64,000 nucleotides of DNA from Kitasatospora sp. CB01950 (GTDB lineage Bacteria; Actinomycetota; Actinomycetes; Streptomycetales; Streptomycetaceae): assembly GCF_001905465.1 (NCBI RefSeq), contig NZ_LISX01000003.1:62001-126000 (forward strand), given 5' to 3'. Position numbers and translations under genes: made by a program. Within the stretch, counting starts at the first letter, position 1, and every line of letters begins with the position of its first letter. The notes under the pieces are model-generated. The model did not search any database. It had not been told where the DNA came from and saw only the letters and a program-made list of their open reading frames with translations. Positions 7,951 through 23,549 of this stretch are shown in pieces.

Positions 7951-8598
7951 GGTGAGCTGGCGGCCGTGCGCCAGCGACCAGGCGGCGACGCCGACGCGGT
8001 TGCGGGCGCCCAGCTTGCGCTGGATGCTCGCCAGATGGTTCTTGACGGTGCCGGGGGAGAGGAACAGCTCGGCGGCGATCTCCGCGTTGGTGGCGCCGTC
8101 CGCGACCAGCACGGCGACCTGCCGCTCGCGCGGGCTGAGCGACTCGGCCGGGGCCTGCTGGGACGGCACCGGCGGGGCGAAGTGCCGCAGCAGGCGGACC
8201 GTCAACTGCGGGCTGATCAGCGTGTCGCCGGCCATCGCCGCCCGGACCGCCTCGGCGAGCAGCGCCGGGCCGGAGCGCTTGAGGAGGAACCCGGTGGCGC
8301 CGTTGCTGAGCGCCGTGTGGACGTACTCGTCGAGGTCGAAGGTGGTCACCACGACCACCCGGATCGGGTCGGCGACGTCCGGTCCGGCCAGCTGTCGGGT
8401 CAGGTCGAGGCCGTCCAGGTGCGGCATGCGGATGTCCGCGAGGACGACGTCCGGCCGTATGCGGCGGGCGAGTTGGAGTGCGGTGCGGCCGTCGGGGGCG
8501 TCGGCGACGACCTGCATGTCCGGCTGGGCGTCGAGGATGATCCGGTAGGCGCTGCGGATGTCCTCGTGGTCGTCGGCGAGCAGGATCCGGATGGTCAC
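7948..8598 (-). CDS. NarL/LuxR-family response regulator
   Basis: A 216-residue two-component response regulator. The receiver domain has the acidic pair DD9-10, phospho-acceptor Asp55 in LADIRMP and conserved Lys in FLLKRSG. The C-terminal LuxR helix-turn-helix includes LSPRERQVAVLVADGATNAE and a following KNHLASIQRKL helix. The GTG start overlaps the end of the kinase gene (GTGA), so the pair is translationally coupled. The target genes cannot be deduced here. Confidence 0.88.
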   Translation of the reverse strand: MTIRILLADDHEDIRSAYRIILDAQPDMQVVADAPDGRTALQLARRIRPDVVLADIRMPHLDGLDLTRQLAGPDVADPIRVVVVTTFDLDEYVHTALSNGATGFLLKRSGPALLAEAVRAAMAGDTLISPQLTVRLLRHFAPPVPSQQAPAESLSPRERQVAVLVADGATNAEIAAELFLSPGTVKNHLASIQRKLGARNRVGVAAWSLAHGRQLT

Positions 8599-9644
8599 GG
8601 GGTCTCCGAGGTCGGGGTGGGGGCGGGGGTGTGGGGGAAGGTGGAGGTGAGCTGCCAGCCGTCCGGGACGGGCCCGGCGTGGAAGGCGCCGCCGAGGGCC
8701 TCGACCCGGGCGGCGAGACCGGCCAGGCCGTGACCGCCGCGCGGCCTGGCCCGGCGGGTGGCGGGCGGGCCGTCGTTGTGCACGATCAGCCGCAATTCGT
8801 CGGCCCGGTGGGTGAGTTCGATCCGGACGGTGCGCGCAGTGGGGGCGTGGCGGCGGACGTTGGTGAGCGCCTCGACGGCGATCCGGTGGACGGTCGCGGC
8901 GCACTCGCGTCCCACCGGGTCCGGGGCGAGTGCGAGTTGGACGACCGGGCCGCCGGTGGCGGTGAACCGTCGGGCCAGCTCCGGGAGTTCGGCGAGGCTT
9001 TCGTGCGGGGCGAGGGCGGCCTGCCGATCGGCGGTGCGCAGCAGGTCGACGGTCCGGTCCAGGGAGGCGAGGGCCTGCTGCCCGGCCTGCTCGATCCGGC
9101 CGAACAGCTCGGCCGCCCGTTCCGGCGACCGGCCGGCCAACACGCCTCCGGCCTGCGCCAGGGCGACCATGCCGCTGACGTCGTGGGCGACGAAGTCGTG
9201 CAGGTCGTGGGCGAGTTCGAGCCGCTGGGCGTGTTGGGCGGCGGCCACGGCGAGCTCGCGTTGACGGTCGAGCGCGCGCAGGTACCCGCCGACGGCGCAG
9301 GCGACCGCAACGGCGACGGCACCGAAGCCGAGCAGCGGCGGCTCGAAGCCGACGAACCGCATCGGCCACCCCAGCACGGCCAGCGCCGGCCAGGCCACCG
9401 CCCACCCCCGGCCGTTCCGGGCCGCGAGGGCCACCAGGCCCAGCAGCACACCGAGTTCGACCACCCCGGCCAGCCCCACCGCCGCCGCCCCGCCCCGGTA
9501 CGGCCCGGCCCACCCGGCGGCGCAGCTGAGCACGATCGACAGCGCAGCGACAGATCCGGCCCGCCGTGGGCGGCACAGCGCCCACCCGACGACGGCGGCA
9601 GGGACGAGCAACCCGGCAGCGGTCCAGACGAGTTCGGCGCTCAC
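8595..9644 (-). CDS. Sensor histidine kinase, HisKA_3 type
   Basis: A 349-residue membrane kinase with four or five hydrophobic segments in the first 120 residues and no large extracellular domain, so it probably senses within the membrane. The dimerisation helix carries His149 in LAHDLHDFVAHD. The ATPase domain has an N-box (HRIAVEALTNVRRHA) and a glycine-rich GGHGLAGLAARV. The GTG start overlaps the stop of a 34-codon upstream ORF (GTGA). It forms a pair with the downstream response regulator. Confidence 0.86.
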   Translation of the reverse strand: MSAELVWTAAGLLVPAAVVGWALCRPRRAGSVAALSIVLSCAAGWAGPYRGGAAAVGLAGVVELGVLLGLVALAARNGRGWAVAWPALAVLGWPMRFVGFEPPLLGFGAVAVAVACAVGGYLRALDRQRELAVAAAQHAQRLELAHDLHDFVAHDVSGMVALAQAGGVLAGRSPERAAELFGRIEQAGQQALASLDRTVDLLRTADRQAALAPHESLAELPELARRFTATGGPVVQLALAPDPVGRECAATVHRIAVEALTNVRRHAPTARTVRIELTHRADELRLIVHNDGPPATRRARPRGGHGLAGLAARVEALGGAFHAGPVPDGWQLTSTFPHTPAPTPTSETP

Positions 9645-9745
9645 GGGGCTGTCCGGCAGCGGGGGTCGGCCGGGTCGGCGGTGGAGTCGAGCGCAGGTGA
9701 CGACGCCGATAACCCGGCTGTGGCCCGGGCGAGTTCGGCGTTCAT
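9641..9745 (-). CDS. 34-residue leader ORF with a TTA codon
   Basis: A small reading frame beginning MNAELARATAG and ending CRTAP. Its TGA overlaps the GTG of the kinase gene, and its ATG overlaps the stop of another small ORF upstream (ATGA). Codon 12 (9712-9710) is TTA, a leucine codon that in Streptomyces is read only by the developmental tRNA bldA. There is no signal peptide or known motif. It could couple kinase synthesis to bldA. It is too short for codon statistics, so expression is inferred from the overlap architecture alone. Confidence 0.45.
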   Translation of the reverse strand: MNAELARATAGLSASSPALDSTADPADPRCRTAP

Positions 9746-9834
9746 GACGCTGCCTCGGGCGGGCCTGGCGTCGGTCGATTCGGCATGGTGGGGCGCTCGC
9801 GTGTGCGCGTGGCTGCCCCCAGGTCCCCGTTCAT
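9742..9834 (-). CDS. 30-residue leaderless leader ORF
   Basis: Starts MNGDLGAATRT and ends PPEAAS. A TAGGGT -10 box ends six bases before its ATG, typical of a leaderless message. Its stop overlaps the next ORF in an ATGA. The first nine residues resemble those of the following ORF (MNGDLGAAT versus MNAELARAT), which hints at a small duplication. Function unknown. Confidence 0.42.
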   Translation of the reverse strand: MNGDLGAATRTRERPTMPNRPTPGPPEAAS

Positions 9835-9840
9835 GTGATC

Positions 9841-9885
9841 ACCCTAGGGGCCGTGGGGGCGGCGGCGGGTGTGCCGATCGGCACA
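9841..9885 (-). promoter_or_regulatory. Promoter and palindrome of the two-component unit
   Basis: On the minus strand a -10 box TAGGGT (9846-9841) precedes the first leader ORF. Just upstream is a perfect 16-base palindrome TGTGCCGATCGGCACA (9870-9885), close to where the -35 region would be. It is a plausible binding site for the cognate response regulator or another repressor. No consensus -35 is visible. Confidence 0.45.
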
Positions 9886-10211
9886 TCGGGTGTCCGGGGG
9901 ATGGCCGTTCGACACCTGCGGCCGGGGCAGGGGCGGGCGACAGAGTCCTGGGCGGCGCCGGTGGCCGGCCGAGGAGAGGACGGACAGCAATGGGGACGAT
10001 GGCACCGGCACCACGAAGGGCCATGCGGGCAAGTGCGGGCGGTGGTGCCGTCGGCACTCGCCGCACGGCCTCGCGGGCTCGGTGATGGCGCTGTGCTACC
10101 TGCGCTGGTGGCGTGGGGGCCGCTGCCGGCGGCCGTGACGATCGACCACGCCCGCCGGGCCCGAGTGCCGCATCATGGGGGCCGGTGGGGACGACGGCGT
10201 GAGGGGCGGGC
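9886..10211. other. Intergenic region without a supported gene
   Basis: This is the divergent space between the two-component unit (read left) and the hypothetical gene starting at 10212 (read right). Open frames exist on both strands, but none has a ribosome site, a recognisable domain or a sensible partner. Nothing else stands out. Confidence 0.5.
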
Positions 10212-10718
10212 GTGGGGCGGCTGTTGAGCGGTGTCGCGGCGGTGCGCTGGGGAGAGCTGCGCGACGCGACGGGCGATCCGGCCGGCCGCGTTCCCGCGCT
10301 GTTGTCCCGGATCGCGTTCGGGGACGAGCAGGCGGCCCGCCGGGCGGTCGACGAACTCGCCGACGCGGTCTGCGCGTTGGGCTTCGTCGTCGGCGGGGCG
10401 ACCGCACCCGCCGTGCCGCTCCTGCTCGAACTGGCCGTGTCCCCAACGGGGTTGTGCCAGCCGGAGCTGTGGGCGCTGCTGGAGAGTATCTGCCGCACCG
10501 AGCAATGGCACTCCGCCGCCGGCCCCGAGCACGGCCCGGCGTTGCGGCGGCAACTCGGCTGGGAGGCGGCCGCGAGGGCGGCGGTCCACGCGGGCAGGCC
10601 GGTCGTCGAACGCGTCGCCGCCTCCGTGAGGCCGGAGGACGCGGTGCCCGCCCGGCGGCTGTTGCGGGCGATGGACGAGTCGCCGCCCTTCCCGACCCGG
10701 CGCGGGCACGGCCGTTGA
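10212..10718 (+). CDS. Hypothetical helical protein
   Basis: A 168-residue protein with GTG start preceded by GAGGGGCGG. It is made of amphipathic helices with repeated Ala/Leu patterns (DEQAARRAVDELADAVCALG; PAVPLLLELAV; PELWALLESICRTEQW), reminiscent of HEAT or armadillo-like helical proteins that are common and uncharacterised in streptomycetes. It has no signal or membrane segment. The assignment to a HEAT-like fold is inference. Confidence 0.6.
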   Translation: MGRLLSGVAAVRWGELRDATGDPAGRVPALLSRIAFGDEQAARRAVDELADAVCALGFVVGGATAPAVPLLLELAVSPTGLCQPELWALLESICRTEQWHSAAGPEHGPALRRQLGWEAAARAAVHAGRPVVERVAASVRPEDAVPARRLLRAMDESPPFPTRRGHGR

Positions 10719-10953
10719 ATGCCCGTCGGGCGCGGCGTTGGTGCGGGGATGGGCAACGCATTAACAAGGGAGAACTTCGGGGCGAACAGAGGCAGCTCGG
10801 GAGGCATTCCGCTTCCGGACATTGTCTGTGCACACATAGCGTTCGCAGCGTGACGATGTGCGTCCGGTTCGTGTCGAAGCCGGATCGTTCGCCATGCGGT
10901 GCTGCGGCCGAGGACGGGCCTCGGGCCGGCGGAGATCCGGGGGGTGGCGGGCG

Positions 10954-11319
10954 GTGCGCGGGGAGGGTCTGTTCACGGAACGGGCGTCGAACGGGCGGTT
11001 CCAGTGGCAGTTGAAGGCGTTGAACGGGCGGGTGGTGGCGGTCTCCTCGTCCGTCTACGACTCCGCCGCGGACGCCGAGCGAGCTTTCGCCGAACTCGTC
11101 GCCCTGGGACCGGCGTTGGTGGCGCGGATCACCCATGTGCGGGGTGGGCCGGGCTGGACCTGGGTGGTGCCCGGGGCGCGCGGCAATCCGCTGGTCACGT
11201 CGAGTCGGGCGTACGAGCGTTACGCGACGTGCCAGAACGCGTTCCGCCGGTTCGCGGCGCTGCTGGCCCGGATGGCGGAGGCGGCGGTGCCCGGCGGTAC
11301 GCCCGGGGGTGGACGGTGA
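10954..11319 (+). CDS. YegP-like (DUF1508) protein
   Basis: A small protein of about 121 residues containing a DUF1508/YegP-like alpha-beta motif: GRFQWQLKALNGRVVAVSSS followed by YDSAADAERAFAEL. The GTG at 10954 is preceded by a G-rich stretch; in-frame upstream starts at 10894 and 10858 are possible but lack a ribosome site. Its stop overlaps the GTG of the next gene (GTGA), which encodes a divergent copy of the same fold. Function of the family is not established. Confidence 0.6.
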   Translation: MRGEGLFTERASNGRFQWQLKALNGRVVAVSSSVYDSAADAERAFAELVALGPALVARITHVRGGPGWTWVVPGARGNPLVTSSRAYERYATCQNAFRRFAALLARMAEAAVPGGTPGGGR

Positions 11320-11750
11320 GCGGGGCCGAGCCGGGGCGGGGGGACGGGCCGCGGCACAGGGCCGAGTCGGGGCGTGGCCCGCGGCTGGTGCCGGTGCGCG
11401 GCGCGGACGGCCGGGCGGGATGGTCGCTGGTCGCCGCGAACGGGCGGCGGCTGGCCGCAGCCGTCCGCGGCTACCGGACGGACCGTGAACTGGCCTCCGG
11501 GGTCGCCGAGTTGCTCGCCGAGCGGGCCGCCCTGCGGTTCGTGCTGAGCCAGCGCGAGGACCGGCAGTGGACGTGGACTGCCTACCTGCCGGCCCGCTCC
11601 ACCCGGGCGGGTGCGGGCGGCGGCGAGCCGGTGGCCCGCAGCGCCCGCGGCTATCTGCGGCGCGACCAGTGCCGGCAGAGCGTCACCGGCTTCCTGCAGG
11701 GCGTCGAGCACGTCCAGCGGATGTGCCGAACGGCCGGGAACCCCTGGTGA
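11316..11750 (+). CDS. Second YegP-like protein
   Basis: A 144-residue protein translationally coupled to the previous gene. It repeats the pattern GWSLVAANGRRLAAAVRGY...ELASGVAELLAERAALRF and again ends in a Tyr/Arg-rich helix (SARGYLRRDQCRQSVTGF). The two genes appear to be an old tandem duplication of a YegP-like module. No signal peptide. Role unknown. Confidence 0.55.
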   Translation: MSGAEPGRGDGPRHRAESGRGPRLVPVRGADGRAGWSLVAANGRRLAAAVRGYRTDRELASGVAELLAERAALRFVLSQREDRQWTWTAYLPARSTRAGAGGGEPVARSARGYLRRDQCRQSVTGFLQGVEHVQRMCRTAGNPW

Positions 11751-12105
11751 GTCGGGCTCGGCGAGAGGTGCGGGGCCGTCGCCCGAGGGGTTCGTGCACG
11801 TCCGGCCGGGGTCGGTGGTGCTGGGGTGAAGCGGAGATGGCCGAGGTGCCCCCGTGGGCACACCTGGAGAAGAACGTGTCCATGTCGGGGAGTTCCGGTG
11901 AAGGGCCATCAATCACCGCCCCCACCAGCGTAGTTGGTGCGGAAGCCGGAGTGCGGACGGCGGGGCGGGCGGCTCGGGAGAGGCTTCCGGGCGGCGGCGC
12001 GGGACGACGAGGATCACTCCCGCCGGGAAGCCGCGGAGCTCTCCGGCACCGGACCCCGCCAGGTCCGGTCCAGCGAGGCACGATCCCCCTCGGAGGATGA
12101 GGACC
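11751..12105. other. Intergenic region before the Pst-like locus
   Basis: No gene is called. A plus-strand frame from ATG 11837 to 12100 begins MAEVPPWAHLEKNV and has good GC-ending codons for its first 16 codons, but it then degenerates and has no spaced ribosome site. A short inverted repeat GTGCCC/GGGCAC lies at 11846-11861. I see no tandem GTTCA-type PHO boxes here. The strong ribosome site GGAGG at 12092-12096 belongs to the next gene. Confidence 0.5.
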
Positions 12106-13128
12106 ATGCGTCACACCGCTGCCAAGGCGCTCGCGGCCGTTGCCATCACCGCCGCCCTGACCACCGTCGCCGCCGTTCCGGCCAGCGCCGACCCGACCGT
12201 GACCCCCGCCGCGAAGGACATCGTGGGCGTGGGCTCGGACACCACGCAGGCGCTGTTCACCAAGTTCTCGGCCGACTACAACGCGACGATCCCGGCCACC
12301 GACACCACCACGCCGCGCCTGTACAGCTGGGACGCCACCGGCACCAGCCCGATCACCCCGAAGACCGGCGGCGCCTCGATCGCCCGCCCGAACGGCTCCG
12401 GCGCCGGCATCAGCGCGCTTGCCGCCAACACCAACGCCACCCTGGACTTCGCCCGTTCCTCCCGCGCCGCCCAGGCCACCGACCCGTCCACCCTGGACTT
12501 CATCGCCTTCGCGAAGGACGCGGTCACCTGGTCCGCCACGGTCAACGGCCACGCCCCGGCCAACCTGACCACCGCGAACCTGGTCGACATCTACACCTGT
12601 GCCAAGACCGACTGGTCGCAGTTCGGCGGCACCGCCGGCACCATCAAGGCGTACCTGCCGCAGAGCGGCTCCGGCACCCGCTCGTTCTTCCTGCAGGCCC
12701 TCGGCAACATCACCCCGGGCAACTGCGTCGTCAGCGGCCCCGAGGAGAACGAGGGCACCGACTCCGCGTTCACGGGCAACCTCGACGCGATCTTCCCGTA
12801 CTCGGTCGGCCACTACGTCGGCCAGCTGAACGGCCACACCACCGCCACCGACGCCCCCGGCCAGCTGACCCTGCGCAACATCAACGGCGTCACGCCGCTG
12901 ACCGCCACCAACACCCTGAACCCGGCGTTCGCCGGCGGCAGCTACGGCCGCGTGCTGTTCAACGTGGTCCGCGACGCCGACTACACCGCCACCACCACCC
13001 AGGGCACCGCGCTGCGCGCCATCTTCAGCAACGGCGGCTGGATCTGCTCCACCGCCGGTCGCAACGACATCGCCAGCTACGGCTTCCTGAACCTGCCGGC
13101 CACCGGCTGCGGCGTCATCATCCACTGA
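12106..13128 (+). CDS. Secreted PstS-like substrate-binding protein
   Basis: A 340-residue exported protein. The signal peptide ends about ASA|D at residue 28, and no lipobox is present, so it is released or held by partners. The body resembles phosphate-binding PstS proteins, with an oxyanion-binding-like loop QSGSGTRSFF, a preceding VGSDTTQ near the N-terminus and cysteines that could pair. The ATG at 12106 is preferred over the one at 12097 because GGAGG at 12092 is correctly spaced. It is the first gene of the Pst-like locus and is followed by a strong hairpin. The ligand is probably an oxyanion, but this is not proven. Confidence 0.75.
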   Translation: MRHTAAKALAAVAITAALTTVAAVPASADPTVTPAAKDIVGVGSDTTQALFTKFSADYNATIPATDTTTPRLYSWDATGTSPITPKTGGASIARPNGSGAGISALAANTNATLDFARSSRAAQATDPSTLDFIAFAKDAVTWSATVNGHAPANLTTANLVDIYTCAKTDWSQFGGTAGTIKAYLPQSGSGTRSFFLQALGNITPGNCVVSGPEENEGTDSAFTGNLDAIFPYSVGHYVGQLNGHTTATDAPGQLTLRNINGVTPLTATNTLNPAFAGGSYGRVLFNVVRDADYTATTTQGTALRAIFSNGGWICSTAGRNDIASYGFLNLPATGCGVIIH

Positions 13129-13160
13129 CACCCCGCCACCCCGGCACCACGTGCCACCCC

Positions 13161-13196
13161 CGCCGCCCGTCCCGCAGCCACGCGGGACGGGCGGCG
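13161..13196 (+). terminator. 15-bp hairpin after the binding-protein gene
   Basis: A perfect 15-base-pair stem (13161-13175 with 13182-13196) closed by a six-base loop. It is GC-only, without a T run, as is common in streptomycetes. It separates the first secreted gene from the next. Confidence 0.75.
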
Positions 13197-13256
13197 GCCC
13201 CGTCACGGCCGACCCGCCGTGCACGACGCACCCTGCACCCCGCCTCGTCAGCAAGC

Positions 13257-13376
13257 CGCGCCGCGAAGAACCCCGCACCGCGTAAGACCTGCACCGCGCA
13301 AGACCCGCACCGCGAGCAACCTGCGCCACGAGCACCCCGCACCGCGAAGAACCCCGCACCGCGAAGAACCCCGCAC
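13257..13376 (+). repeat. Seven tandem copies of a 15-17 base unit
   Basis: Imperfect copies of CGCACCGCGAAGAACC run from 13257 to just before the ribosome site of the next gene. The sixth and seventh copies are identical and a partial eighth follows. The array lies in the leader of the small secreted protein gene. It lacks the constant-length spacers of a CRISPR array. Confidence 0.85.
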
Positions 13377-13395
13377 CCAGCTTGAAGGAGCCACG

Positions 13396-13980
13396 ATGTC
13401 CCGCACGTACGCCCGGATCGCCGCCGCTGCCGCCGGCCTCGCCCTCGTCGCCACCGTCGCCTCGGCGACCACCGCCTCGGCCGCGCCGGCCGCCGGCAAC
13501 GCGGTGATCCACGAGAGCAACGCGTTCTTCCAGCAGGCCGCCCAGGCCGGCATCGTGGCCGTCCCGCTGCCCACCGCGACCGCCGGCTACGACCCGAACA
13601 CCGGCCTGTCGGCGAGCTTCCCCGTCACCGGCGGCTCCGGCAACATCGCCGAGTTCTGGGGCAGCGTCCAGTTCGGCGGCGGCCTGCTGTTCGTCGACGC
13701 CCGCACCGGCAGCGCCGTCGCCTTCCGCCAGCTGTCGTTCTCCTCGGACAGCTACCAGGTCACCGGCGTCCCGGACGGCTCCACCACCCCCGTCGCGCTG
13801 TTCGCCCCGGCCGGCGAGACCGTGGTCACCCGCACCGGCGCCACCCAGAACCTGAACGCCGCCTCGCTGGCGCTCGACCCGGCCGGCGCACAGTTCCTCG
13901 ACAGCAAGCTGCGCACCTCGTTCTTCACCGCGGACCAGAGCGTCGGCACCTTCACCGTGTCCTACACCCCGGCCTCCTGA
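13396..13980 (+). CDS. Small secreted protein of the Pst-like locus
   Basis: A 194-residue exported protein with signal peptide cleavage near ASA|A (29). The mature part is a beta-rich domain of about 165 residues (NIAEFWGSVQFGGGLLFVDA) without cysteines or catalytic motifs I recognise. The start is set by GAAGGAG at 13384. It sits between two substrate-binding proteins and is flanked by hairpin terminators on both sides, so it is probably transcribed as a single gene. Function unknown. Confidence 0.72.
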   Translation: MSRTYARIAAAAAGLALVATVASATTASAAPAAGNAVIHESNAFFQQAAQAGIVAVPLPTATAGYDPNTGLSASFPVTGGSGNIAEFWGSVQFGGGLLFVDARTGSAVAFRQLSFSSDSYQVTGVPDGSTTPVALFAPAGETVVTRTGATQNLNAASLALDPAGAQFLDSKLRTSFFTADQSVGTFTVSYTPAS

Positions 13981-14012
13981 CGATTCGTCACTCCAGCACC
14001 GTGCGCCACACC

Positions 14013-14045
14013 CGCACCGCCCGACCCGTCCGGTCGGGCGGTGCG
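14013..14045 (+). terminator. 14-bp hairpin followed by a T run
   Basis: A perfect stem pairs 14013-14026 with 14032-14045 across a five-base loop, followed by CGCGTTTT. It is a good intrinsic terminator for the small secreted protein gene. Confidence 0.8.
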
Positions 14046-14237
14046 CGCGTTTTCGGACGCTGATGACACGTCAGTTCCCTTGATTCGAGCACTAATTGGG
14101 GCCTCGTACATCTGGTGGACAGCACCCGGACAGACGTCACTGGCCGAATATCGTCGGAGGCGTCGAACGCCGTCGCTCCGCTCCCTGTCATCCGTGCGTG
14201 CCTGCTCCGGTGCGCCGTCGCCGGAGGTGCTTCGCCG

Positions 14238-16775
14238 ATGAGAGTCCGCCCGTCAGGGCCCAGAACCCGATCACGACCGTTGCAGGCCTGGCTGGCGGCC
14301 GTCCTGACGTGGGCGCTCGGCGCGGCCGCCGTGCTGCTGCCGCTCGGCGGGACGGGCGTCCAGCCCGCGCAGGCCGCCGCCGGCACCACCGTGCCCGGGC
14401 CCGCCCGCTGGGACCCGCTGACCTGGACCACCGGCCCCGCCGGGTCCGTGACCGTCACGCCGACCAGCGGCCTCGGCAACCAGGTGCTGCACGTCACCTG
14501 GAGCGGGTTCACGCCGACCGTGGACGCCGACTTCCAGCCCGTCCCCGTGGTGCTCAACCCGCACGGGAACTCCGGCTTCGACAAGGTCGCCCGCTACCCG
14601 GTGCGGATCTACCAGTGCCGCGGCGAGAAGCCGCAGATCACCGACTGCTACGGCTCCAGCCTGTACAACGCCGACCCGGCCAAGGGCTTCCTGCAGCCGT
14701 TCCCCGCGCCCGGCACCACCACGCCCGAGTTCCCGTCGAACATGGCGATCGCCGCGACCCGCCCCGACGGCAGCGGCGAGGCCGACATCGAGGTGTGGAC
14801 CGCGCAGCAGAGCCAGACCCTCGGCTGCGACCCCACCCACAAGTGCTCGCTGGTGATCGAGGCCAACTACGGCGGCGACTCCGTCGGCGCCTACCAGTGG
14901 CCGGCCGGCGAGATCAACTGCGACGACCACTCCGGCGACTCCGACGGCCTGTTCAACACCGCCAGCGACAACGTCGTCGCGTTCGAGAACACCGGCGGCA
15001 AGCGCTACGCCAGCGGCGAGGCCTGCGCCTGGGCCAACCACGTCACCGTGCCGCTCAACTTCGGCCCCACCCCGGCGGCCTGCGCCGCCAAGAACGCCGA
15101 CTTCTCCGCGATCGGCCTGGAGATGGCCGACCGTGCTGTCCAGCAGTGGCGCACCGGCCTGTGCCAGGGCGGCAACGACCCGCTGACCGTGCAGTACACC
15201 TCCGGCGGCGGCGAACCGCAGGCCCGCTCGGCGTTCCTGCGCCGCGCCGGCGGCGACATCGCACTCACCTCGGTGCCCGACCGCGACCCGGCGGCCCGCC
15301 CGTACACCTACGCGCCGCTCGCCAACAGCGCCGTCTCCGTGGTCTTCCTGGTCGACGACGGCGCCAGCCACCGGCAGATCCGCACCCTGAAGCTCAACCA
15401 GCGGCTGCTCGCCAAGATGCTGACGCAGAGCTACCGGCTCGACGCCGGCGACGAGACCGACAGCGTCAAGGGCAACGCGGTCTGCCTGTTCGCCGACCCC
15501 GAGTTCCTCCAGCTCAACCCCAGCGGCGACAACGGCCCGACCTGGCCCGGCTGCCTGGCCGGCGGCACCTTCGCCGCCACCGCCCCGATCGTCGTCGGCG
15601 GCACCACCGACCTGGTCACCCGCCTCACCACCTGGATCGCCGCCGACCCCGACGCCGCCCAGTTCCTCCAGGGCGCCGCCGACCCGTGGGGCATGCACAT
15701 CGACGCCAAGTACCTGCGCTCCAGCTACCCCGGGTTCCCGGTCGACGCCTTCCAGCCGCAGGACTTCACCGGCCCGCCGAGCCGCCCCAACTGGAAGCAG
15801 TACGAGTGGAACCCGGTGCTCGGCGGCCTCGGCCAGGTCCTGCGAATGACCCTTGAGGTCCGGCCGTCCTGCCTGAACCCCGACGAAGTCCAGGGCCAGC
15901 ACGCCAAGTGCATCAGCCAGGACAACGGCAAGCGCGCCCTGTTCGCCGTCATGGACGCCGGCCAGGCCCAGGCGATGAGCCTGCCCGAAGCCCAACTGCC
16001 CAACCCGGCAGGCGGATTCACCACCCCGACGATCGCCTCCATGCAGGCCGCCGCCGCCGACATGCCCGTCGACGCCGCCACCGGCACGCAGCAACTCCCG
16101 TACAGCGACGCAGACTCGGCGTACGCCAAGGACCCCAAGGCGTACCCGCTGACCATGGTCCAGTACGCCATGCTGCCCACCCAGGGCGTTGCCCCGGACA
16201 AGGCCGCCGCCATCGCCCGCTTCGTGCGGACCGTCACCGACCCCGCCAAGGGCCAGATCTACGGCCGCCAGCCCGGCCAACTCGCCGTCGGATTCGGCGG
16301 ACTGACGACAGGTCAGGTCACGGCAGCGAAGACCGCGGCCGGACACGTCGCCGCCCAGGACAGCGCCCTGCCCGGCAACCAGACCGCACCCGGCAACGGC
16401 AGCGGCGACGGCAACGGAGGCAACTCCGGCGGCGGCAGCGGAAACGGCGGCGGAGCCGGCAACCCCGGCACCGGCGCACTCGGCAACCCCGCCGACGCCC
16501 CCGCCGGGGACAACGCCCCCGGCGACAACAGCGGCGGCGGCGGAGCCAAGCCCAGCGGCAGCGCCTCGCCCACCCTCGGCGCCACCGCCGTCGGCCAGGC
16601 CGCCGCCGACCGGGCCGGCCTCGCCCGCCTGCTGCTGCCCGTCATCCTCGCCACCGGAGCCGTCCTGCTGGTCGGCGGACCCGCCGCCCTGCTCCTCGGC
16701 GGCACCCCCGCCGGCGCCGAACTGCGTCGCCGCACCGGCCGCCTCCGCGACCGTCTGCTGCGCCGCAACGGCTGA
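14238..16775 (+). CDS. Large membrane-tethered PstS-like binding protein
   Basis: An 845-residue exported protein. The signal peptide (LQAWLAAVLTWALGAAAVLL) ends near AQA. A cysteine-containing N-terminal region of unknown fold (about 50-290) is followed by a PBP-like region (about 310-690) with DPWGMHIDAK and the PstS-like stretch YPLTMVQYAMLP. A Gly/Asn/Ser linker (about 705-775) leads to one C-terminal membrane helix and an Arg-rich tail. It would display a binding domain on the outer face of the membrane. The start at ATG 14238 has GGAGGT upstream. There is no LPXTG motif. A hairpin separates it from pstC. Confidence 0.72.
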   Translation: MRVRPSGPRTRSRPLQAWLAAVLTWALGAAAVLLPLGGTGVQPAQAAAGTTVPGPARWDPLTWTTGPAGSVTVTPTSGLGNQVLHVTWSGFTPTVDADFQPVPVVLNPHGNSGFDKVARYPVRIYQCRGEKPQITDCYGSSLYNADPAKGFLQPFPAPGTTTPEFPSNMAIAATRPDGSGEADIEVWTAQQSQTLGCDPTHKCSLVIEANYGGDSVGAYQWPAGEINCDDHSGDSDGLFNTASDNVVAFENTGGKRYASGEACAWANHVTVPLNFGPTPAACAAKNADFSAIGLEMADRAVQQWRTGLCQGGNDPLTVQYTSGGGEPQARSAFLRRAGGDIALTSVPDRDPAARPYTYAPLANSAVSVVFLVDDGASHRQIRTLKLNQRLLAKMLTQSYRLDAGDETDSVKGNAVCLFADPEFLQLNPSGDNGPTWPGCLAGGTFAATAPIVVGGTTDLVTRLTTWIAADPDAAQFLQGAADPWGMHIDAKYLRSSYPGFPVDAFQPQDFTGPPSRPNWKQYEWNPVLGGLGQVLRMTLEVRPSCLNPDEVQGQHAKCISQDNGKRALFAVMDAGQAQAMSLPEAQLPNPAGGFTTPTIASMQAAAADMPVDAATGTQQLPYSDADSAYAKDPKAYPLTMVQYAMLPTQGVAPDKAAAIARFVRTVTDPAKGQIYGRQPGQLAVGFGGLTTGQVTAAKTAAGHVAAQDSALPGNQTAPGNGSGDGNGGNSGGGSGNGGGAGNPGTGALGNPADAPAGDNAPGDNSGGGGAKPSGSASPTLGATAVGQAAADRAGLARLLLPVILATGAVLLVGGPAALLLGGTPAGAELRRRTGRLRDRLLRRNG

Positions 16776-16783
16776 CCGCACCC

Positions 16784-16815
16784 GCCGGGCGGGCGCCCCT
16801 GCGCGCCCGCCCGGC
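16784..16815 (+). terminator. 13-bp hairpin between the binding protein and pstC
   Basis: A perfect 13-base-pair stem (16784-16796 with 16803-16815) with a six-base loop and no T run. It may end the upstream message or attenuate read-through into pstC. Confidence 0.65.
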
Positions 16816-16862
16816 CACCCTCGACCACCCCAGGAACCCTCACCGCGCGGAGAGTTGACACC

Positions 16863-17873
16863 ATGACCGCCGCCGTCCAGCCGACGGAAACCCGCGTCCC
16901 ACCACCCGAAGCCGACCGGCCCCGACCGATCAGCGCCCCCGCCTCGCCCGCCGACCGGGCCTTCCGCGGCCTGCTGCGCGCCGCCGGCCTGTCCGTGTTC
17001 GCGCTGATGGGCCTGATCGCGTTCTTCCTGCTGCTGCGCGGCACCGAGGCGTTCGACGCCGTCGGCTGGTCCTTCCTCACCGAGCAGCGCTGGCGCACCG
17101 CCGCACACTCCTTCGGCATCGCCGCGGTGCTGCCCGACGGCATCCTGATCGCCGTCATCGCGCTGTGCATCGCGGTGCCGGTCGCGCTCACCGCCGCGCT
17201 GTTCATCTCCGAGTACGCGCCCGTCCGGCTGCGGCCCACGCTGATCTCGCTGGTCGACCTGATGGCCGCGATCCCCAGCATCGTCTACGGCCTGTGGGGC
17301 CTGTTCTTCCTGCAGCCGCGGATCGTCGGCTTCTGCCGTTGGCTGGCCGTCCATCTCGGCGGCGCGCTGCCGTTCCTGGAGGTCCGCACCGGCGACATCG
17401 CCACTTCCTACACCTCGTCCACGTTCATCGCGGGCACCGTGGTCTCCCTGATGATCATTCCGATCATCACCTCGCTCAGCCGCGAGGTGTTCTCGCAGGC
17501 CCCCGCCGGCGAACGCGAGGGCGCGTACGCGCTCGGCTCCACGCGCTGGGGCATGGTCCGCACCGTCGTGCTGCCGTTCGGACGCGGCGGCGTGATCGGC
17601 GCCGTGATGCTCGGCTTCGGCCGCGCGATGGGCGAGACCATCGCCGTCGCACTGATCATCTCGCCGGTGTTCCGGCTCTCCTGGCACGTCCTGGAGAACG
17701 GCGGCAACTCGATCTCCTCGCTGATCGCGCTGCGCTTCAGCGAGTCCGACAGCCTCTCGCTGTCCGCACTGATGGCCGCCGGACTGGTGCTGTTCGCCAT
17801 CACCCTGCTGGTCAACGTGGCCGCCGGGTTCATCATCAGCCGGTCCCGGTCCGGCGCCTCGACCTCGGATTGA
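16863..17873 (+). CDS. pstC: Phosphate-type ABC permease PstC
   Basis: A 336-residue permease with six predicted membrane helices after a 30-residue cytoplasmic N-terminus. Signature features include IPSIVYGLWGLFFL and the cytoplasmic loop REGAYALGSTRWGMVRTVVL, then GRAMGETIAVALII. GGAGAG lies just before the ATG. It is the first gene of pstC-pstA-pstS-sortase-like-pstB, with almost no gaps through to the sortase-like gene. It would form the channel with PstA. Phosphate is the usual ligand; another oxyanion cannot be excluded. Confidence 0.88.
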   Translation: MTAAVQPTETRVPPPEADRPRPISAPASPADRAFRGLLRAAGLSVFALMGLIAFFLLLRGTEAFDAVGWSFLTEQRWRTAAHSFGIAAVLPDGILIAVIALCIAVPVALTAALFISEYAPVRLRPTLISLVDLMAAIPSIVYGLWGLFFLQPRIVGFCRWLAVHLGGALPFLEVRTGDIATSYTSSTFIAGTVVSLMIIPIITSLSREVFSQAPAGEREGAYALGSTRWGMVRTVVLPFGRGGVIGAVMLGFGRAMGETIAVALIISPVFRLSWHVLENGGNSISSLIALRFSESDSLSLSALMAAGLVLFAITLLVNVAAGFIISRSRSGASTSD

Positions 17874-17887
17874 CCGGAGGCCACGCA

Positions 17888-19126
17888 ATGTCGACCACCC
17901 ACCCCGGCAACACCCTTGACGCACTCCCCGCCCCTGAGGACCGCCCCGGCCCTGAGGACCGCCCCGCCCCTGACGCACTCCCCGAGCAGCAGCGGATCCG
18001 ACTCGGCGGCGTCACCCGCGAGGAGGTCCTCACCCTGGCCGGCGCCGCCGGCGGCTCGCTCGGCCTCGACTGGCTGCTGTACGAACGCATCCTGCCGTTC
18101 AGCGGCGCGTTCGGCTTCCTGCTCTGCTGGTACCTGCTGTTCCTCGCCCTCTACGCCGTCGCCGGGCGCCTCCAGTGGGACGCCCTGACCGTCCGCGAAC
18201 GCCTCGCCACCGCGCTCGCCTGGAGCTCCGGCCTGCTGGTGCTCGCCGTCATCGGCGACCAGATCGGCTACGTCCTCTACCGCGGCCTGGACGCCGCCCG
18301 GCACCTCAACTTCTTCACCGAGTCCATGCGCAGCACCGCCGCACTCGACCCGATCACCTCCGGCGGCTGCCTGCACGCCGTCGTCGGCTCGCTCGAACAG
18401 CTCGGCATGGCCACCCTGTTCTCCGTGCCGCTCGGCATCCTCACCGCCGTCTTCCTGGTCGAATCCGGCAGCACCAGGCGCGGCGCACGCCTGGTCAAGC
18501 CCGTCCGGGTGCTGGTCGAGGCGATGACCGCACTGCCGTCGATCGTCGCCGGGCTGTTCGTCCTCGGCGTCGTCATCCTCACCCTCGGCGTCGAGAAGAG
18601 CGGCTTCGCGGCCTCCCTCGCGCTCACCGTCATGATGATGCCCATCGTCACCCGCGCCGCCGAGGTCGTCGTCCGGCTCGTCCCCGGCACCCTCAAGGAG
18701 GCGTCCTACGCGCTCGGCGCCAGCCAGTGGCGCACCGTCTGGCACGTTGTCCTGCCCACCGCCCGACCCGGCCTCACCACCGCCGTCGTGCTCGGCATGG
18801 CCCGCGGCGTCGGCGAGACTTCCCCGGTGCTGCTCACCGCCGGCTTCACCACCCGGCTCAACCTGGACGCCTTCCACGACAACCAGGCCAGCCTGCCGCT
18901 GTTCATCTGGAACTACGTCAAGCAGCCCTACCCCGACATGGTGGCCCGGGCCTTCGCCGGCGGCCTCACCCTGATGGCCGTGGTGCTGATCCTGTTCGTC
19001 ACCGCCCGCGTCCTCGGCCGCCACCGCACCCCGAGCGAACGCCGCACCCGCCGCCCGCTGCGCGCCACTGCTGCCACTGCTGCCACTGCCTCCGCTGCCA
19101 ACAAGGCTGCGCAGGTAGCGAACTGA
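17888..19126 (+). CDS. pstA: Phosphate-type ABC permease PstA, extended N-terminus
   Basis: A 412-residue permease, over 100 residues longer than E. coli PstA. The extra N-terminal part has a proline-rich head (PEDRPGPEDRPAPDA) and two additional membrane helices (about 72-93 and 108-132). The PstA core follows with ALPSIVAGLFVLG and the loop KEASYALGASQWRTVWHVVL and GVGETSPVLLTAGF. The ATG lies 14 bases after pstC. Its stop overlaps an ATG (19126) in frame with pstS. The C-terminal tail is an Ala/Thr repeat. Confidence 0.86.
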   Translation: MSTTHPGNTLDALPAPEDRPGPEDRPAPDALPEQQRIRLGGVTREEVLTLAGAAGGSLGLDWLLYERILPFSGAFGFLLCWYLLFLALYAVAGRLQWDALTVRERLATALAWSSGLLVLAVIGDQIGYVLYRGLDAARHLNFFTESMRSTAALDPITSGGCLHAVVGSLEQLGMATLFSVPLGILTAVFLVESGSTRRGARLVKPVRVLVEAMTALPSIVAGLFVLGVVILTLGVEKSGFAASLALTVMMMPIVTRAAEVVVRLVPGTLKEASYALGASQWRTVWHVVLPTARPGLTTAVVLGMARGVGETSPVLLTAGFTTRLNLDAFHDNQASLPLFIWNYVKQPYPDMVARAFAGGLTLMAVVLILFVTARVLGRHRTPSERRTRRPLRATAATAATASAANKAAQVAN

Positions 19127-19167
19127 TGCCTCGTCAACTCTCCGGTACGAGAAGGAAGATCCGCCCC

Positions 19168-20859
19168 GTGCGACTCCGTCACCTGACGTCGGCGCTGCTC
19201 GCCGCCGCCCTCGCCCTGCCCGCCGCGCTGCTCGGCGCCTCACCCGCGTACGCGGCCACCTCGCTGAAGGCGGACGGCTCCAGCTGGGCCGGGCCGGCCA
19301 TCGACCAGTGGCGGCGCGACGTCCAACCGATGGGCATCGAGATCGACTTCACCGCGAGCGGCTCGGCCGCCGGCCGCGTCCAGTGGTCGATCGGCCAGGA
19401 CGACTTCACCGCCTCCGACGTGCCGTTCCGCGCCAAGGCCGACACCGGCGTCGGCGGCGGCGGGGCCAGCAACGGCCAGGGCCAGCCGGAGAACCCGGTG
19501 TACGGCTACTCGTACGTGCCGATCACCGCCGGCGGCACCGCGCTGATGTACCACCTGGAGGTGGGCGGCAAGAAGGTCACCGACCTGCGGCTGTCCCCGG
19601 ACACCGTGGTCGGCATCTTCACCAACAAGATCACCTCCTGGGACGACCCGAAGATCACCGCCGACTACGGCCGGGCCCTGCCCAAGATCCCGATCACGCC
19701 GGTGGTGCGCTCCGACGGCTCCGGCGCCAGCGCCCAGTTCACCCGCTGGATGGAGCACACCCACAAGAGTGAGTGGGACGCCTACTGCCAGCAGGTCAAC
19801 GGCGTCAGCTGCGGCGACTACACCGAGTTCTACCCGGCGGCCGGCCGGATGACCGCGCAGAACGGCTCCGACGTGGTGGCCAGCTACATCCAGTCGCCGA
19901 CCGGCATCGGCGCGATCGGCTACGACGAGTACGCGTTCGCCAAGCGCAGCGGCTGGCCCGTCGTCAAGGTGCTCAACCCCGCCGGGTACTACACCCTGCC
20001 GAGCGCCTCCAACGTCGCCGTCGCGCTGACCGCCGCCAGGATCCGCGGCGTGGACGACAACACCCCCACCTCCGACCCCGACTACCTGCAGCAGAACCTC
20101 GACGGCGTCTACAGCAACAACGACCCGCGCTCCTACCCGATCTCCTCCTACAGCTACCTGATCGTGCCGCGGGCCGGCACCCCGCTGCCGGTGACGCCCA
20201 AGTTCAACGACCAGAAGGGCAGCGCGCTCAGCCGCTACCTGGCGTACGTGCTGTGCGCCGGGCAGCGCGAGGCCGACGACCTCGGCTACTCGCCGATCCC
20301 GCGCAACCTGGTGCGCGGCGGACTGCTGCAGACCCAGCACATCCCCGGCAACGCCAGCCCCGTCGACCCCAACACCCTCTCCAACTGCCCCAACCCGACC
20401 TTCGACTCCGGCGGCCAGCTGATCGTCCTGAAGAACGCCCCGCAGCCCAGCCCCTGTGACAAGAAGGGCAGCCCGCTGGACTGCACCGTCCAGGACGGGC
20501 AGGCCGTGAAGACCGGCAACGGCGGCAACGGCGGTGGCGGCAACGGCGGTTCGGGCGGCAACGGGAACGGCAACGGGAACGGTGGCGGTGGCGGCAACGG
20601 GACGGGCGGCGGCACCGGCGGCGGCAACGGGGGACAGGCCGTCGACCCGCAGACCGGCGAAGTCATCTCGGACTCCGGCAACGGCGGCGGCGGTTCGGGC
20701 GGCGGCAACGTCCCCGGCACGGTGGTCGCGCTCGGCGGACGCCCGCAGGACTGGCTGCTGTCCACCCTCACCGCGCTCGAACTGCTCGGCGTGGTCACCG
20801 TCCCGCCGCTGCTGGCCGCCTGGTGGCGCCGGCGCAACACCGCGGCGGGGCCCCGATGA
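19168..20859 (+). CDS. pstS: Membrane-tethered PstS-like phosphate-binding protein
   Basis: A 563-residue binding protein. The PstS domain (about 30-390) carries SSWAGPAIDQW, FTASDVPF and the ligand-loop RSDGSGASAQF. A Gly/Asn-rich linker of about 60 residues precedes one C-terminal membrane helix (DWLLSTLTALELLGVV) and a basic tail, so it is anchored at its C-terminus instead of by a lipid. The GTG at 19168 is chosen because GAAGGA precedes it and a signal peptide (cut after AYA, 29) follows at once; the ATG at 19126, coupled to pstA, is an alternative. Its stop overlaps the next gene. Confidence 0.82.
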   Translation: MRLRHLTSALLAAALALPAALLGASPAYAATSLKADGSSWAGPAIDQWRRDVQPMGIEIDFTASGSAAGRVQWSIGQDDFTASDVPFRAKADTGVGGGGASNGQGQPENPVYGYSYVPITAGGTALMYHLEVGGKKVTDLRLSPDTVVGIFTNKITSWDDPKITADYGRALPKIPITPVVRSDGSGASAQFTRWMEHTHKSEWDAYCQQVNGVSCGDYTEFYPAAGRMTAQNGSDVVASYIQSPTGIGAIGYDEYAFAKRSGWPVVKVLNPAGYYTLPSASNVAVALTAARIRGVDDNTPTSDPDYLQQNLDGVYSNNDPRSYPISSYSYLIVPRAGTPLPVTPKFNDQKGSALSRYLAYVLCAGQREADDLGYSPIPRNLVRGGLLQTQHIPGNASPVDPNTLSNCPNPTFDSGGQLIVLKNAPQPSPCDKKGSPLDCTVQDGQAVKTGNGGNGGGGNGGSGGNGNGNGNGGGGGNGTGGGTGGGNGGQAVDPQTGEVISDSGNGGGGSGGGNVPGTVVALGGRPQDWLLSTLTALELLGVVTVPPLLAAWWRRRNTAAGPR

Positions 20860-21752
20860 CAACTCCCGTGATGACCAAGCCCGTTGAGACTCCCGTCGCG
20901 ACTGCTGCCGCGACTGCTGCCGCCGTGCGCGAGCCCGGGCGGGGGCGACGCCGACTGCTGGGCGTCGCCTGGTCGGTGACGATCGCCGCCGTGGTGCTGC
21001 TCGGCTTCGCCGGCTACCTGTTCGGCCTCTCCGGGCTGCAGGAGGCGCGCCACCAGTCCACCGCGTACGCCACGTTGCGCGACCAGCTCGGCAAGGCCAC
21101 CGCGCCCACCGGGCCGACCACCGACGGCGCGCCGCTCGCCGTGCTGGACATCCCCGCGCTCGGGCTGCACCAGGCCGTGGTGGTCGAGGGCACCAACGGG
21201 CGCGACCTGATGCGCGGACCCGGGCACCGGCGCGACACCGTGCTGCCCGGACAGCCCGGCGTGGCCGTGCTGTTCGGCCGCTCCACCGCGTTCGGCGCGC
21301 CCTTCGCCGGCCTCGCCGGACTGCGGCCCGGCGACGGCATCGACATCACCACCGGCCAAGGCAGCTTCCACTACACCGTCAACGCCTCCGGCGACGGCGA
21401 CCACCCGATCAAGGACAGCGCGCCCAACCGGCTGGTGCTGGTCACCGGGGACTCCTCCTGGATTCCCACCAGCACCGTGCTGATCGGCGCCCGCCTCGAC
21501 GGCGACCCGCAGCCGCTCGGCGCCCGCCGGCCCGCCGCCGCACCCGCCGACAAGGCCCTGGCCGCCGACAAGGGCGCCCTGTCCGCGCTCCAACTCTGGT
21601 CGCTGGCCCTGCTGTTGGCGGTCGTCGCGGCCGGCCTCGCGGCCCGCCACTGGCGGCGCAGCGCGAGCTACTTGTGCTTCGCGCCGGTGCTCGCCGCGCT
21701 GTTCTGGGCGGTGTACGAGAACGCCGCCGCGCTGCTGCCCAACGTCTACTGA
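20856..21752 (+). CDS. Sortase-fold protein lacking catalytic residues
   Basis: A 298-residue membrane protein. An N-terminal helix (about 35-55) is followed by a class E-like sortase domain (about 90-215: LDIPALGLHQAVVVEGTNG, GPGHRRDTVLPGQPG, FGAPFAGLAGLRPGDGI). Two hydrophobic segments end the protein. Where active sortases have AGHR, this has FGRS with Arg142; where they have TLxTC, this has LVTG with Gly198; the late Arg is also missing. So catalysis is unlikely and a binding or scaffold role is inferred. Its ATG overlaps the pstS stop, and pstB follows 37 bases on, tying it to the transporter. Confidence 0.72.
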   Translation: MTTPVMTKPVETPVATAAATAAAVREPGRGRRRLLGVAWSVTIAAVVLLGFAGYLFGLSGLQEARHQSTAYATLRDQLGKATAPTGPTTDGAPLAVLDIPALGLHQAVVVEGTNGRDLMRGPGHRRDTVLPGQPGVAVLFGRSTAFGAPFAGLAGLRPGDGIDITTGQGSFHYTVNASGDGDHPIKDSAPNRLVLVTGDSSWIPTSTVLIGARLDGDPQPLGARRPAAAPADKALAADKGALSALQLWSLALLLAVVAAGLAARHWRRSASYLCFAPVLAALFWAVYENAAALLPNVY

Positions 21753-21789
21753 CCTGCCTTCCTGACCGCCGGAGAGGATCCGCCCGCCG

Positions 21790-22746
21790 ATGACCGAGAC
21801 CGCACAACCCCCCTACCCCGCAGCCGAGTTCGGTGACGGAACGACCGACCCGCCGACGATTCCGCTGCCGCCGGTGCCCGCCGACGGGGCGCCCGGCGGG
21901 CCTTCGGACGGTCCGTCGGGCGGGCCTTCGGACGGGTCGTCCCACGGGCCTTCCCACGGGCCGTCCAACGGGCTGTCCGGGCTGGAGACCCGCGACCTGA
22001 CCGCCTGGTTCGGTCAGCGCAAGGTACTGGAACGCGTCTCGCTGCAGATGCGGGCCGGCGAGATCACCGCGCTGATCGGGCCGTCCGGCTGCGGCAAGTC
22101 CACCTACCTGCGGATCCTCAACCGGATGCACGAGATGGTGCGCGGCGCGGCGCTGGCCGGCGAGGTGCTGCTCGACGGCGAGGACGTGTACGCCACCGGC
22201 CGCCGCCCCGCCGAGGTCCGCCGCCGGATCGGCATGGTGTTCCAGCGACCCAACCCGTTCCCCGCGATGTCGCTGTACGACAACGTGATCAGCGGGCTGA
22301 AGCTGGCCGGTATCAAGGCGAGCCGCGACGAGCGCGACCACCTGGTCGAGTCCAGCCTGCGCCAGGCCGGCCTGTGGGACGAGGTCAGCAACCGGCTCGG
22401 CACGCCCGGCGGGGCGCTCTCCGGCGGCCAGCAGCAGCGCCTGTGCATCGCGCGCTCGCTCGCGGTCTCCCCGGAGATCCTGCTGATGGACGAGCCCTGC
22501 TCGGCGCTCGACCCGACCTCCACCCGCCGCATCGAGGAGACCATCGCCGAACTGCGCCACCGCCTGACCATCGTCATCGTCACCCACAACATGCAGCAGG
22601 CGCAGCGGGTTTCGCAGTCCTGTGCGTTCTTCCTCGCCTCGCACGACACCCCCGGCCGGATCGTCGAGGCGGGCCCCACCGAGCGCCTGTTCACCTCGCC
22701 GGCCGACCCGCGCACCGCGGACTACGTGAACGGCCGCTTCGGCTGA
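21790..22746 (+). CDS. pstB: Phosphate-type ABC ATPase PstB
   Basis: A 318-residue ATPase that energises PstC/PstA. Walker A is GPSGCGKST (97-105), the ABC signature is LSGGQQQRLCIA, and Walker B is ILLMDEPCSALD. The Tyr/Asn/Pro-rich Q-loop region FQRPNPFPAMSLYDNV is typical of PstB. About 60 extra N-terminal residues consist of a Pro/Ser/Gly/Asp repeat (GGPSDGPSGGPSDG) encoded by degenerate 12-base repeats; it is absent from ordinary PstB. GGAGAGGA precedes the ATG. Confidence 0.9.
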   Translation: MTETAQPPYPAAEFGDGTTDPPTIPLPPVPADGAPGGPSDGPSGGPSDGSSHGPSHGPSNGLSGLETRDLTAWFGQRKVLERVSLQMRAGEITALIGPSGCGKSTYLRILNRMHEMVRGAALAGEVLLDGEDVYATGRRPAEVRRRIGMVFQRPNPFPAMSLYDNVISGLKLAGIKASRDERDHLVESSLRQAGLWDEVSNRLGTPGGALSGGQQQRLCIARSLAVSPEILLMDEPCSALDPTSTRRIEETIAELRHRLTIVIVTHNMQQAQRVSQSCAFFLASHDTPGRIVEAGPTERLFTSPADPRTADYVNGRFG

Positions 22747-22792
22747 CCCGCTTCGGCCGGTTCGCTTCGGCCGGTTCGCTTCGGCGGGTCAG
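22743..22792 (+). terminator. Repeat-filled hairpin overlapping the pstB stop
   Basis: CTGACCCGC (22743-22751), which contains the TGA, pairs with GCGGGTCAG (22784-22792). The loop holds two direct copies of a 14-base unit (TTCGGCCGGTTCGC). It is a probable terminator of the pst operon. Confidence 0.6.
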
Positions 22793-22997
22793 GTCCGGCC
22801 CGGGGTGACGGTGTGTCACATCCGGGTCGGGCGGGGGCGAGCGCCTAGCGTGGACGGGCGGCGGCGAGCGGGCGGAGCATCCCGGTGGGTGCGCCCGTCG
22901 TCGTCGCACCGCCATGCACCGCCAGGCCATCACGCCGTCAGGCCGCCAGGCCGCCAGGCCACCACGCCACCACGCCGTCACGAGGAGAGCGCAGACC

Positions 22998-23549
22998 ATG
23001 ACCGTCAGCCTGCCCGAGCTCACCGGGGACTACGTCCTCGACCCCGCCCACACCCGGATCGGGTTCGTCGCCCGCCACGCCATGGTCACCAAGGTGCGCG
23101 GCGCCTTCCACCAGTTCGAGGGCACCGCGCACCTGGACGGCGCGAACCCGTCGCAGTCCACCGGCCAGCTGATCATCAAGGCTGCGAGCATCGACACCGG
23201 CGTCGATCAGCGCGACCAGCACCTGCGCACCAACGACTTCCTGGACGCGCCGAACTTCCCCGACATCACCTTCCGCACCACGTCCGTCGAGCAGCGCTCC
23301 GACACCGACTACCGGGTCACCGGCGACCTCACCATCAAGGACACCACCCGCCCCGTCACCATCGACTTCGAGTACACCGGCAACGCGGTCGACCCGTACG
23401 GCAACCTGCGGGTCGGGCTGGAGGGTGCGGTGACCATCAGCCGCAAGGAGTACGGCGTCACCTGGAACGCGGCGCTGGAGGGCGGCGGGGTGCTGGTCGG
23501 CGACAAGGTGGTGTTGGAGTTCGACGTCTCCGCGATCAAGCAGGGCTGA
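22998..23549 (+). CDS. YceI-family lipocalin-like protein
   Basis: A 183-residue YceI-domain protein: GDYVLDPAHTRIGFVARHAM at the N-terminus, HLRTNDFLDAPNFPDITF in the middle and VTISRKEYGVTWNAALEGGG near the end. The family forms a beta-barrel that binds long isoprenoid or lipid molecules. It has no signal peptide, so this one is cytoplasmic, as usual in actinobacteria. GAGGAGAG precedes the ATG. It stands alone; a TAGCGT box at 22846 could be a -10 but lacks a -35. Just upstream are degenerate 9-10 base repeats (about 22920-22978). Confidence 0.85.
   Translation: MTVSLPELTGDYVLDPAHTRIGFVARHAMVTKVRGAFHQFEGTAHLDGANPSQSTGQLIIKAASIDTGVDQRDQHLRTNDFLDAPNFPDITFRTTSVEQRSDTDYRVTGDLTIKDTTRPVTIDFEYTGNAVDPYGNLRVGLEGAVTISRKEYGVTWNAALEGGGVLVGDKVVLEFDVSAIKQG

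Follow-up and report, generated by a model that had tools for sequence, protein, structure and literature searches.

Why should a phosphate-type transporter locus carry a sortase? The question is posed by eight plus-strand genes at 12,097-22,746 of a 64,000-nucleotide stretch of Kitasatospora sp. CB01950 (contig NZ_LISX01000003.1, positions 62,001 to 126,000; hereafter the window), encoding, in order, a PstS-like protein (S1), a small secreted protein, a second PstS-like protein (S2), the permeases PstC and PstA, a third PstS-like protein (S3), a sortase-fold membrane protein (Srt*, hereafter the pseudosortase) and the ATPase PstB. Sortases are known as transpeptidases. The locus is genuine: a conserved version of the Pst importer, with a sortase homologue that has lost its catalytic residues. 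As to function, we infer, as something close to an even call, a second Pst-type ATP-binding cassette (ABC) transporter, likely importing phosphate, with a class E-like pseudosortase as a non-enzymatic subunit whose task would be to hold the PstS-type proteins, themselves tethered to the membrane, at the permease.

A predicted sortase fold without its catalytic residues

A first-pass annotation of the window, made from its letters alone, had reported all of these genes and had placed a sortase-fold membrane gene between pstS and pstB. That gene (20,856-21,752) shares 4 bases with S3, stops 37 bases short of pstB, and encodes an N-terminal helix, an outer sortase-fold domain and two C-terminal helices. 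Its predicted structure is clearly a sortase fold, and this fold and the N-terminal membrane helix are shared with class E sortases (Streptomyces avermitilis SrtE, 5go5; Streptomyces coelicolor SrtE1, 5cuw), from which it differs in its two extra C-terminal helices and in lacking the residues described below. Against the NCBIfam class_E_sortase model it scores 65.4 bits and does not reach the cut-off of 160.

In the window the catalytic His, Cys and Arg are replaced by Arg142, Gly198 and Thr207, respectively. Across 243 distinct sequences of this protein (a count that left out those of 150 residues or fewer and those with in-frame stops), the catalytic Cys occurs in 0 of 239 aligned sequences, the His in 4 of 243 and the Arg in 5 of 238; positions 194-202 hold no Cys in any of the 243, and the His position is Arg or Lys in 231. 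The class E tyrosine of the beta3/beta4 loop is likewise found in 0 of 243. The corresponding Tyr229 of SrtE1 is proposed as the LAXTG-reading residue (PMC5148588). The four other sortases of the same genome retain His, Cys and Tyr. These substitutions point to a class E-like sortase homologue without the catalytic Cys, which should no longer cut peptides. Public databases name these proteins sortase, class E sortase or peptidase C60, an annotation that is misleading because the catalytic residues are gone.

The nearest relatives of the window's pseudosortase, encoded in a 7.65 Mb genome, are from Kitasatospora. Two further observations concern individual lineages: the Dactylosporangium proteins (L140, L146, L148, L156) retain the His and have Ala in place of the Cys, a possible half-way stage, and in one close relative (locus L056, genome G081) the reading frames of both the pseudosortase and pstB are disrupted.

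Two probably tethered binding proteins and a probably free one

S3 (19,126-20,859; gene starts in the window were chosen among in-frame starts) is a PstS-like protein (Pfam PBP_like_2, E 9.6e-30) that carries phosphate-site residues, and these are conserved among its aligned relatives: S38 in 90 of 90, D/E56 in 92 of 92, R135 in 89 of 95, and S139 and G140 in 95 of 95. S2 (14,238-16,775) is larger, at 845 residues, and its central domain (residues 285-710), predicted to adopt the PstS fold, has a degenerate phosphate pocket from which the phosphate-site residues are lost. As the first-pass annotation had noted of two binding proteins, S2 and S3 both end in a Gly-rich linker, a single hydrophobic segment and a basic tail, and their relatives agree: the C-terminal hydrophobic segment occurs in 90/92 S2 and 95/96 S3 relatives long enough to be counted. 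We take these predicted C-terminal membrane helices to be membrane tethers. The same combination of hydrophobic segment and basic tail is found in LPXTG/LAXTG sortase substrates, but an accepted LPXTG or LAXTG sorting motif before the helix is present in 0/95 S2 and 1/97 S3 relatives (2/92 and 3/96 with a looser pattern).

S1 (12,097-13,128; 343 residues from the ATG at 12,097, with ATG 12,106 as an alternative start) is a secreted PstS-like protein with a signal peptide, lacking both a lipobox and a C-terminal helix; the hydrophobic segment is found in 0/88 of its relatives. It matches PBP_like_2 (E 7.4e-13), falls under the cut-off of the ptsS_2 model, and has conserved motifs of its own.

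The N-terminal part of S2 (window 14,238-15,100) may be a neocarzinostatin-like domain. Foldseek searches with a whole-chain model gave weak matches to macromomycin (2mcm, E 3e-3) and neocarzinostatin (1nco, E 4.5e-3), and conserved Cys pairs 127/137 and 197/203 have a spacing like that of the disulphides of this family. Unlike the neocarzinostatin/macromomycin apoproteins, it is part of a longer chain that also contains a PstS-fold domain and a membrane anchor, and it has no sequence match to any family. The extra domain, the degenerate pocket of S2 and the catalytic loss in the pseudosortase had all escaped the first-pass annotation.

Conservation of the gene set

Across Actinomycetota these genes stay together, as the first-pass annotation had proposed to check: pstC, pstA, pstS, the sortase-like gene and pstB co-occur in relatives throughout the phylum. 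The outcome that it had named as refuting its reading, extra genes not conserved with the transporter genes, is thus not what the relatives show. Scanning GTDB species yielded 466 relatives of the pseudosortase, and the 80 most like it were retained; loss of the Cys was not a selection criterion, and a more distant active relative would be missed. These 80 include Kitasatospora, Streptacidiphilus, Catenulispora, Frankia, Trebonia, Actinophytocola, Kibdelosporangium, Amycolatopsis, Dactylosporangium, Phytohabitans, Jiangella, Cryobacterium, Compostimonas, Aeromicrobium, Pengzhenrongella and Nanopelagicales. Their loci (genes called with a GC-frame script) contain PstB in 74 instances, S2 in 71, S3 in 69, PstA in 65, S1 in 63 and PstC in 61. 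Where at least 9.5 kb was available on both sides (n=56), all six partners are present in 45 loci and the remaining 11 miss one or two (PstC/PstA in six, S1 in five). Within Streptomycetaceae, pstB lies 3' of the pseudosortase gene in 40/40 loci, including the disrupted copy in L056, and the other gene order varies.

An even sample of 296 genomes of the class gave a similar picture, with S2 in 40, a full-length pseudosortase in 41 (hand count, E 5.3e-22 or better; 93 of 200 genomes of the family at E 1.2e-30 or better), both in 37, S2 alone in 3 and the pseudosortase alone in 4. Several of the single occurrences arise because contigs end: one S2-only genome has a pseudosortase fragment at a contig edge and the contigs of the other two end 1.3 and 4.0 kb past the last component, while one of the four pseudosortase-only genomes (G327) does hold S2 at the locus and the other three (78-86% complete) have the pseudosortase on a contig shorter than 5 kb. 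A further 24 genomes of the class matched the first part of the protein alone, with sequences resembling true sortases. Assemblies bearing the pseudosortase include some of only 1.0-1.7 Mb (60-100% complete). One genome (G255; L195, L196) carries two copies of the system, one of them with a PHO-box-like site at one mismatch before pstC.

Exactly 4 bases of overlap join the pseudosortase gene to its upstream neighbour in 44 of 97 cases, an arrangement that would fit a fixed stoichiometry but is no proof of contact.

Separation from the ordinary pst operon

The three transporter components are recognizable Pst proteins. PstC (16,863-17,873) scores 258.1 bits against TIGR02138 (cut-off 196.45), PstA (17,888-19,126) 214.4 bits against TIGR00974 (cut-off 193.45), and PstB (21,790-22,746) 339 bits against TIGR00972, narrowly under the cut-off of 343.2 but by far its best family; by eye, PstB keeps its Walker A, signature and Walker B motifs. 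Two embellishments that the first-pass annotation had singled out are present without being distinctive. PstA does have extra N-terminal helices, but so does the PstA of this genome's ordinary operon, which has hydrophobic segments before its core at 32-50 and 56-74. The repeat-rich N-terminal extension of PstB is encoded in part by a 24-bp tandem repeat near the 5' end of the gene (21,883-21,973), and it is poorly conserved, since the match to PstB begins at residue 51 or later in 26/40 relatives (hand count).

The second, ordinary pst operon that was to serve as a comparison does exist in the same genome (L159:4407-8584), comprising pstS (with a lipobox), pstC, pstA and pstB, and adjoins genes we read as ppk and a Pit-type transporter. 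In the accessible text of a review of actinobacterial phosphate transport, such a ppk/Pit-type arrangement beside pst is described for Streptomyces, PstSCAB and Pit are given as the universally conserved systems, and no second Pst-type system is mentioned (PMC7866108). In a midpoint-rooted tree of 59 hand-picked PstC sequences, 21 ordinary and 38 system members separate without mixing (support 1.0 and 0.858), which places the PstC of this system in an ancestry apart from that of the ordinary operon. Both systems have PstC, PstA, PstB and a PstS with phosphate-site residues. In contrast to the ordinary PstSCAB, this one has its own PstC clade, a PstS tethered by a helix where the ordinary one is a lipoprotein, the pseudosortase and another two PstS-type proteins, and its Kitasatospora-type branch has no PHO-box-like site. 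The earlier suggestion of a specialised oxyanion-uptake system is thereby supported, as these genes stay together and form a set distinct from the ordinary operon; surface capture, judged from the anchors, is plausible.

At least four PstC-model matches, that is at least two PstC/PstA pairs, were found in 36 of 38 tested genomes, and one pair each in G247 and G327. The sole pair of G247 (86% complete) is the ordinary one (L212). In G327 the Pst described here is the only one found: the genome shows neither a further PstC/PstA pair nor a further PBP_like_2 protein.

Phosphate as the probable ligand

To judge from sequence, phosphate is the most likely ligand. PHO-box-like sites (up to 2 mismatches) precede pstC in 8/33 loci that are not of Kitasatospora type, versus 5/485 other genes (p 1.2e-7, too strong a value because related loci are not independent), and such a site precedes the ordinary pstS in 21/21 cases. 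In one Actinophytocola oryzae locus (L117:11750-12712), a gene for a phytase-like esterase lies within the cluster and adjoins the pseudosortase gene.

An alternative, which we regard as unlikely, is that the system binds a related oxyanion or a phosphorylated compound of the wall or environment. It would account for one permease being common to three different PstS-type proteins, for the conserved motifs peculiar to S1, for the missing PHO-box-like site of the Kitasatospora-type branch and for the wall-type proteins found in many clusters (see below), but the conservation of the S3 site, the PHO-box enrichment elsewhere and the case of G327 all argue for phosphate.

Role of the pseudosortase

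Under our preferred reading of a phosphate importer with a holding subunit, S3 would capture phosphate and deliver it to PstCA, powered by PstB; S1 would act as a released, free capture protein; and S2, its pocket unfit for phosphate, would form with the non-cutting pseudosortase a scaffold keeping the tethered binding proteins near the permease. We count the joint retention of two degenerate members, S2 and the pseudosortase, toward a scaffold, along with the frequent 4-base overlap of the pseudosortase gene, and the docking or holding role of the pseudosortase would follow from it. A bolder version is possible, though we would not lean on it: across Actinomycetota, a class E-type sortase turned structural subunit of an ABC importer that docks helix-tethered, partly degenerate PstS proteins on a second phosphate transporter, making capture, tethering and uptake the work of a single wall-embedded complex.

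This interpretation must be tempered by several observations that weigh against it. S3 in the window has Ala at the T141 position and, at 149.5 bits, lies under the PstS equivalog cut-off of 205. A PHO-box-like site, even at up to 3 mismatches, precedes pstC in 0/44 Kitasatospora-type loci, the window's own branch. Another PstC/PstA pair is already present in 36/38 genomes, which makes the retention of a second puzzling. Gene neighbourhood is evidence of co-inheritance, not of contact, and a distance-based co-evolution analysis pointed to no one partner of the pseudosortase: partial correlations are similar across 57 loci (S3 0.25, PstB 0.25, PstA 0.22), and the highest values among 20 non-Kitasatospora-type loci are those of S2 (0.37) and PstB (0.26).

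Loci of other actinobacteria might suggest a different role. Outside the Kitasatospora set, 14/61 loci have within the cluster a protein whose tail is of LAXTG or LPXTG type, and such tails occur in 14/128 non-core genes inside clusters versus 7/814 outside (p 1.9e-8, overstated for the same reason of shared descent; L106-L109 count here with the other loci and as Kitasatospora-type in the PHO-box comparison). This enrichment would fit a decoy or holding factor for real sortase substrates, one that binds LAXTG-type tails uncut and thereby retains wall proteins in the membrane next to the transporter. We think this improbable overall, as no such tail protein was found in the 47 Kitasatospora-set loci, the window's type included, and the proposed LAXTG-reading tyrosine is missing from 243/243 pseudosortases; the idea is less unlikely for lineages with such tail proteins than for the window's.

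The same clusters hold other surface proteins. Domain scans of 37 extra cluster genes from outside the Kitasatospora set found Ig-like Big_3_5 in 12, WxLIP in 5, WxL in 3 and the phytase-like domain in 1 (L117). In L122, L136, L141, L143, L155, L157 and L158, the transporter is accompanied by proteins with Ig repeats, some of them ending in a WxL-like region, and by membrane proteins, some of which have WxLIP-like domains. Clusters of WxL and WxLIP surface proteins are a feature of Firmicutes, and the likeness to them is confined to these other actinobacterial clusters: none of the window's eight proteins matches a WxL or WxLIP domain. The small secreted protein (13,396-13,980; 194 residues), which recurs in the Kitasatospora-type loci of relatives and has no Pfam match, was considered as a WxL relative and rejected (hhalign probability 0.1% versus a WxL-like set).

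Two members with degenerate sites, alongside an ordinary pst set that is usually present as well, could also be read as a sensor with little net uptake, in which S2 and the pseudosortase signal to the permease and PstB whether S1 or S3 is occupied. We give this little credence: the PstB motifs appear intact by eye, G327 has this system as its sole Pst, and no recurrent signalling gene appears among the clustered neighbours (80-residue and half-length cut). Least credible of all is that the protein still works as a sortase, or that it is a pseudogene in decay, there by chance, since, for all its clear predicted sortase fold and the disrupted copy in G081, the residue counts (243 sequences without a Cys at 194-202, 231 of them with Arg or Lys in place of the His) reject the former, and the conservation of its reading frame and neighbours across Actinomycetota refutes the latter.

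Transcription and flanking features

The gaps from S2 through pstC, pstA, S3 and the pseudosortase gene to pstB are 87, 14, -1, -4 and 37 bases. GC-rich, terminator-like hairpins follow S1 (plus strand, 13,160-13,198; 13,129-13,228 folds at -61.9 kcal/mol, z -5.9) and the small gene (plus strand, 14,012-14,045; a 14-pair stem, z -4.4 for 13,981-14,080). Because these hairpins are strong, S2 to pstB are likely one transcription unit, with S1 and the small gene as separate units. Between S1 and the small gene lies a tandem repeat of about 16 bp in 7.4 copies (13,256-13,377), CCGCACCGCGAAGAACC. A scan for promoters and T-tract terminators found nothing above shuffled sequence, no PHO-box-like site was found near the locus, Rfam gave no match at gathering score across 9500-23,200, and a plasmid collection gave no match at E 1e-15. 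On the minus strand at 7948-9644, two overlapping genes resemble, by eye, a response regulator and a sensor kinase.

Implications

Our literature search found no description of a Pst variant with a pseudosortase, a weak negative, as most subscription journals and all preprints lay outside its coverage. A conserved branch of sortases that has lost its catalytic residues has remained tied to a transporter in widely differing actinobacteria. If the pseudosortase does serve the importer, this would be a first transport role for a sortase-fold protein, a new job for the fold, and would raise a testable question, namely what a non-catalytic sortase contributes to nutrient uptake and why two Pst systems are kept by so many actinobacteria.

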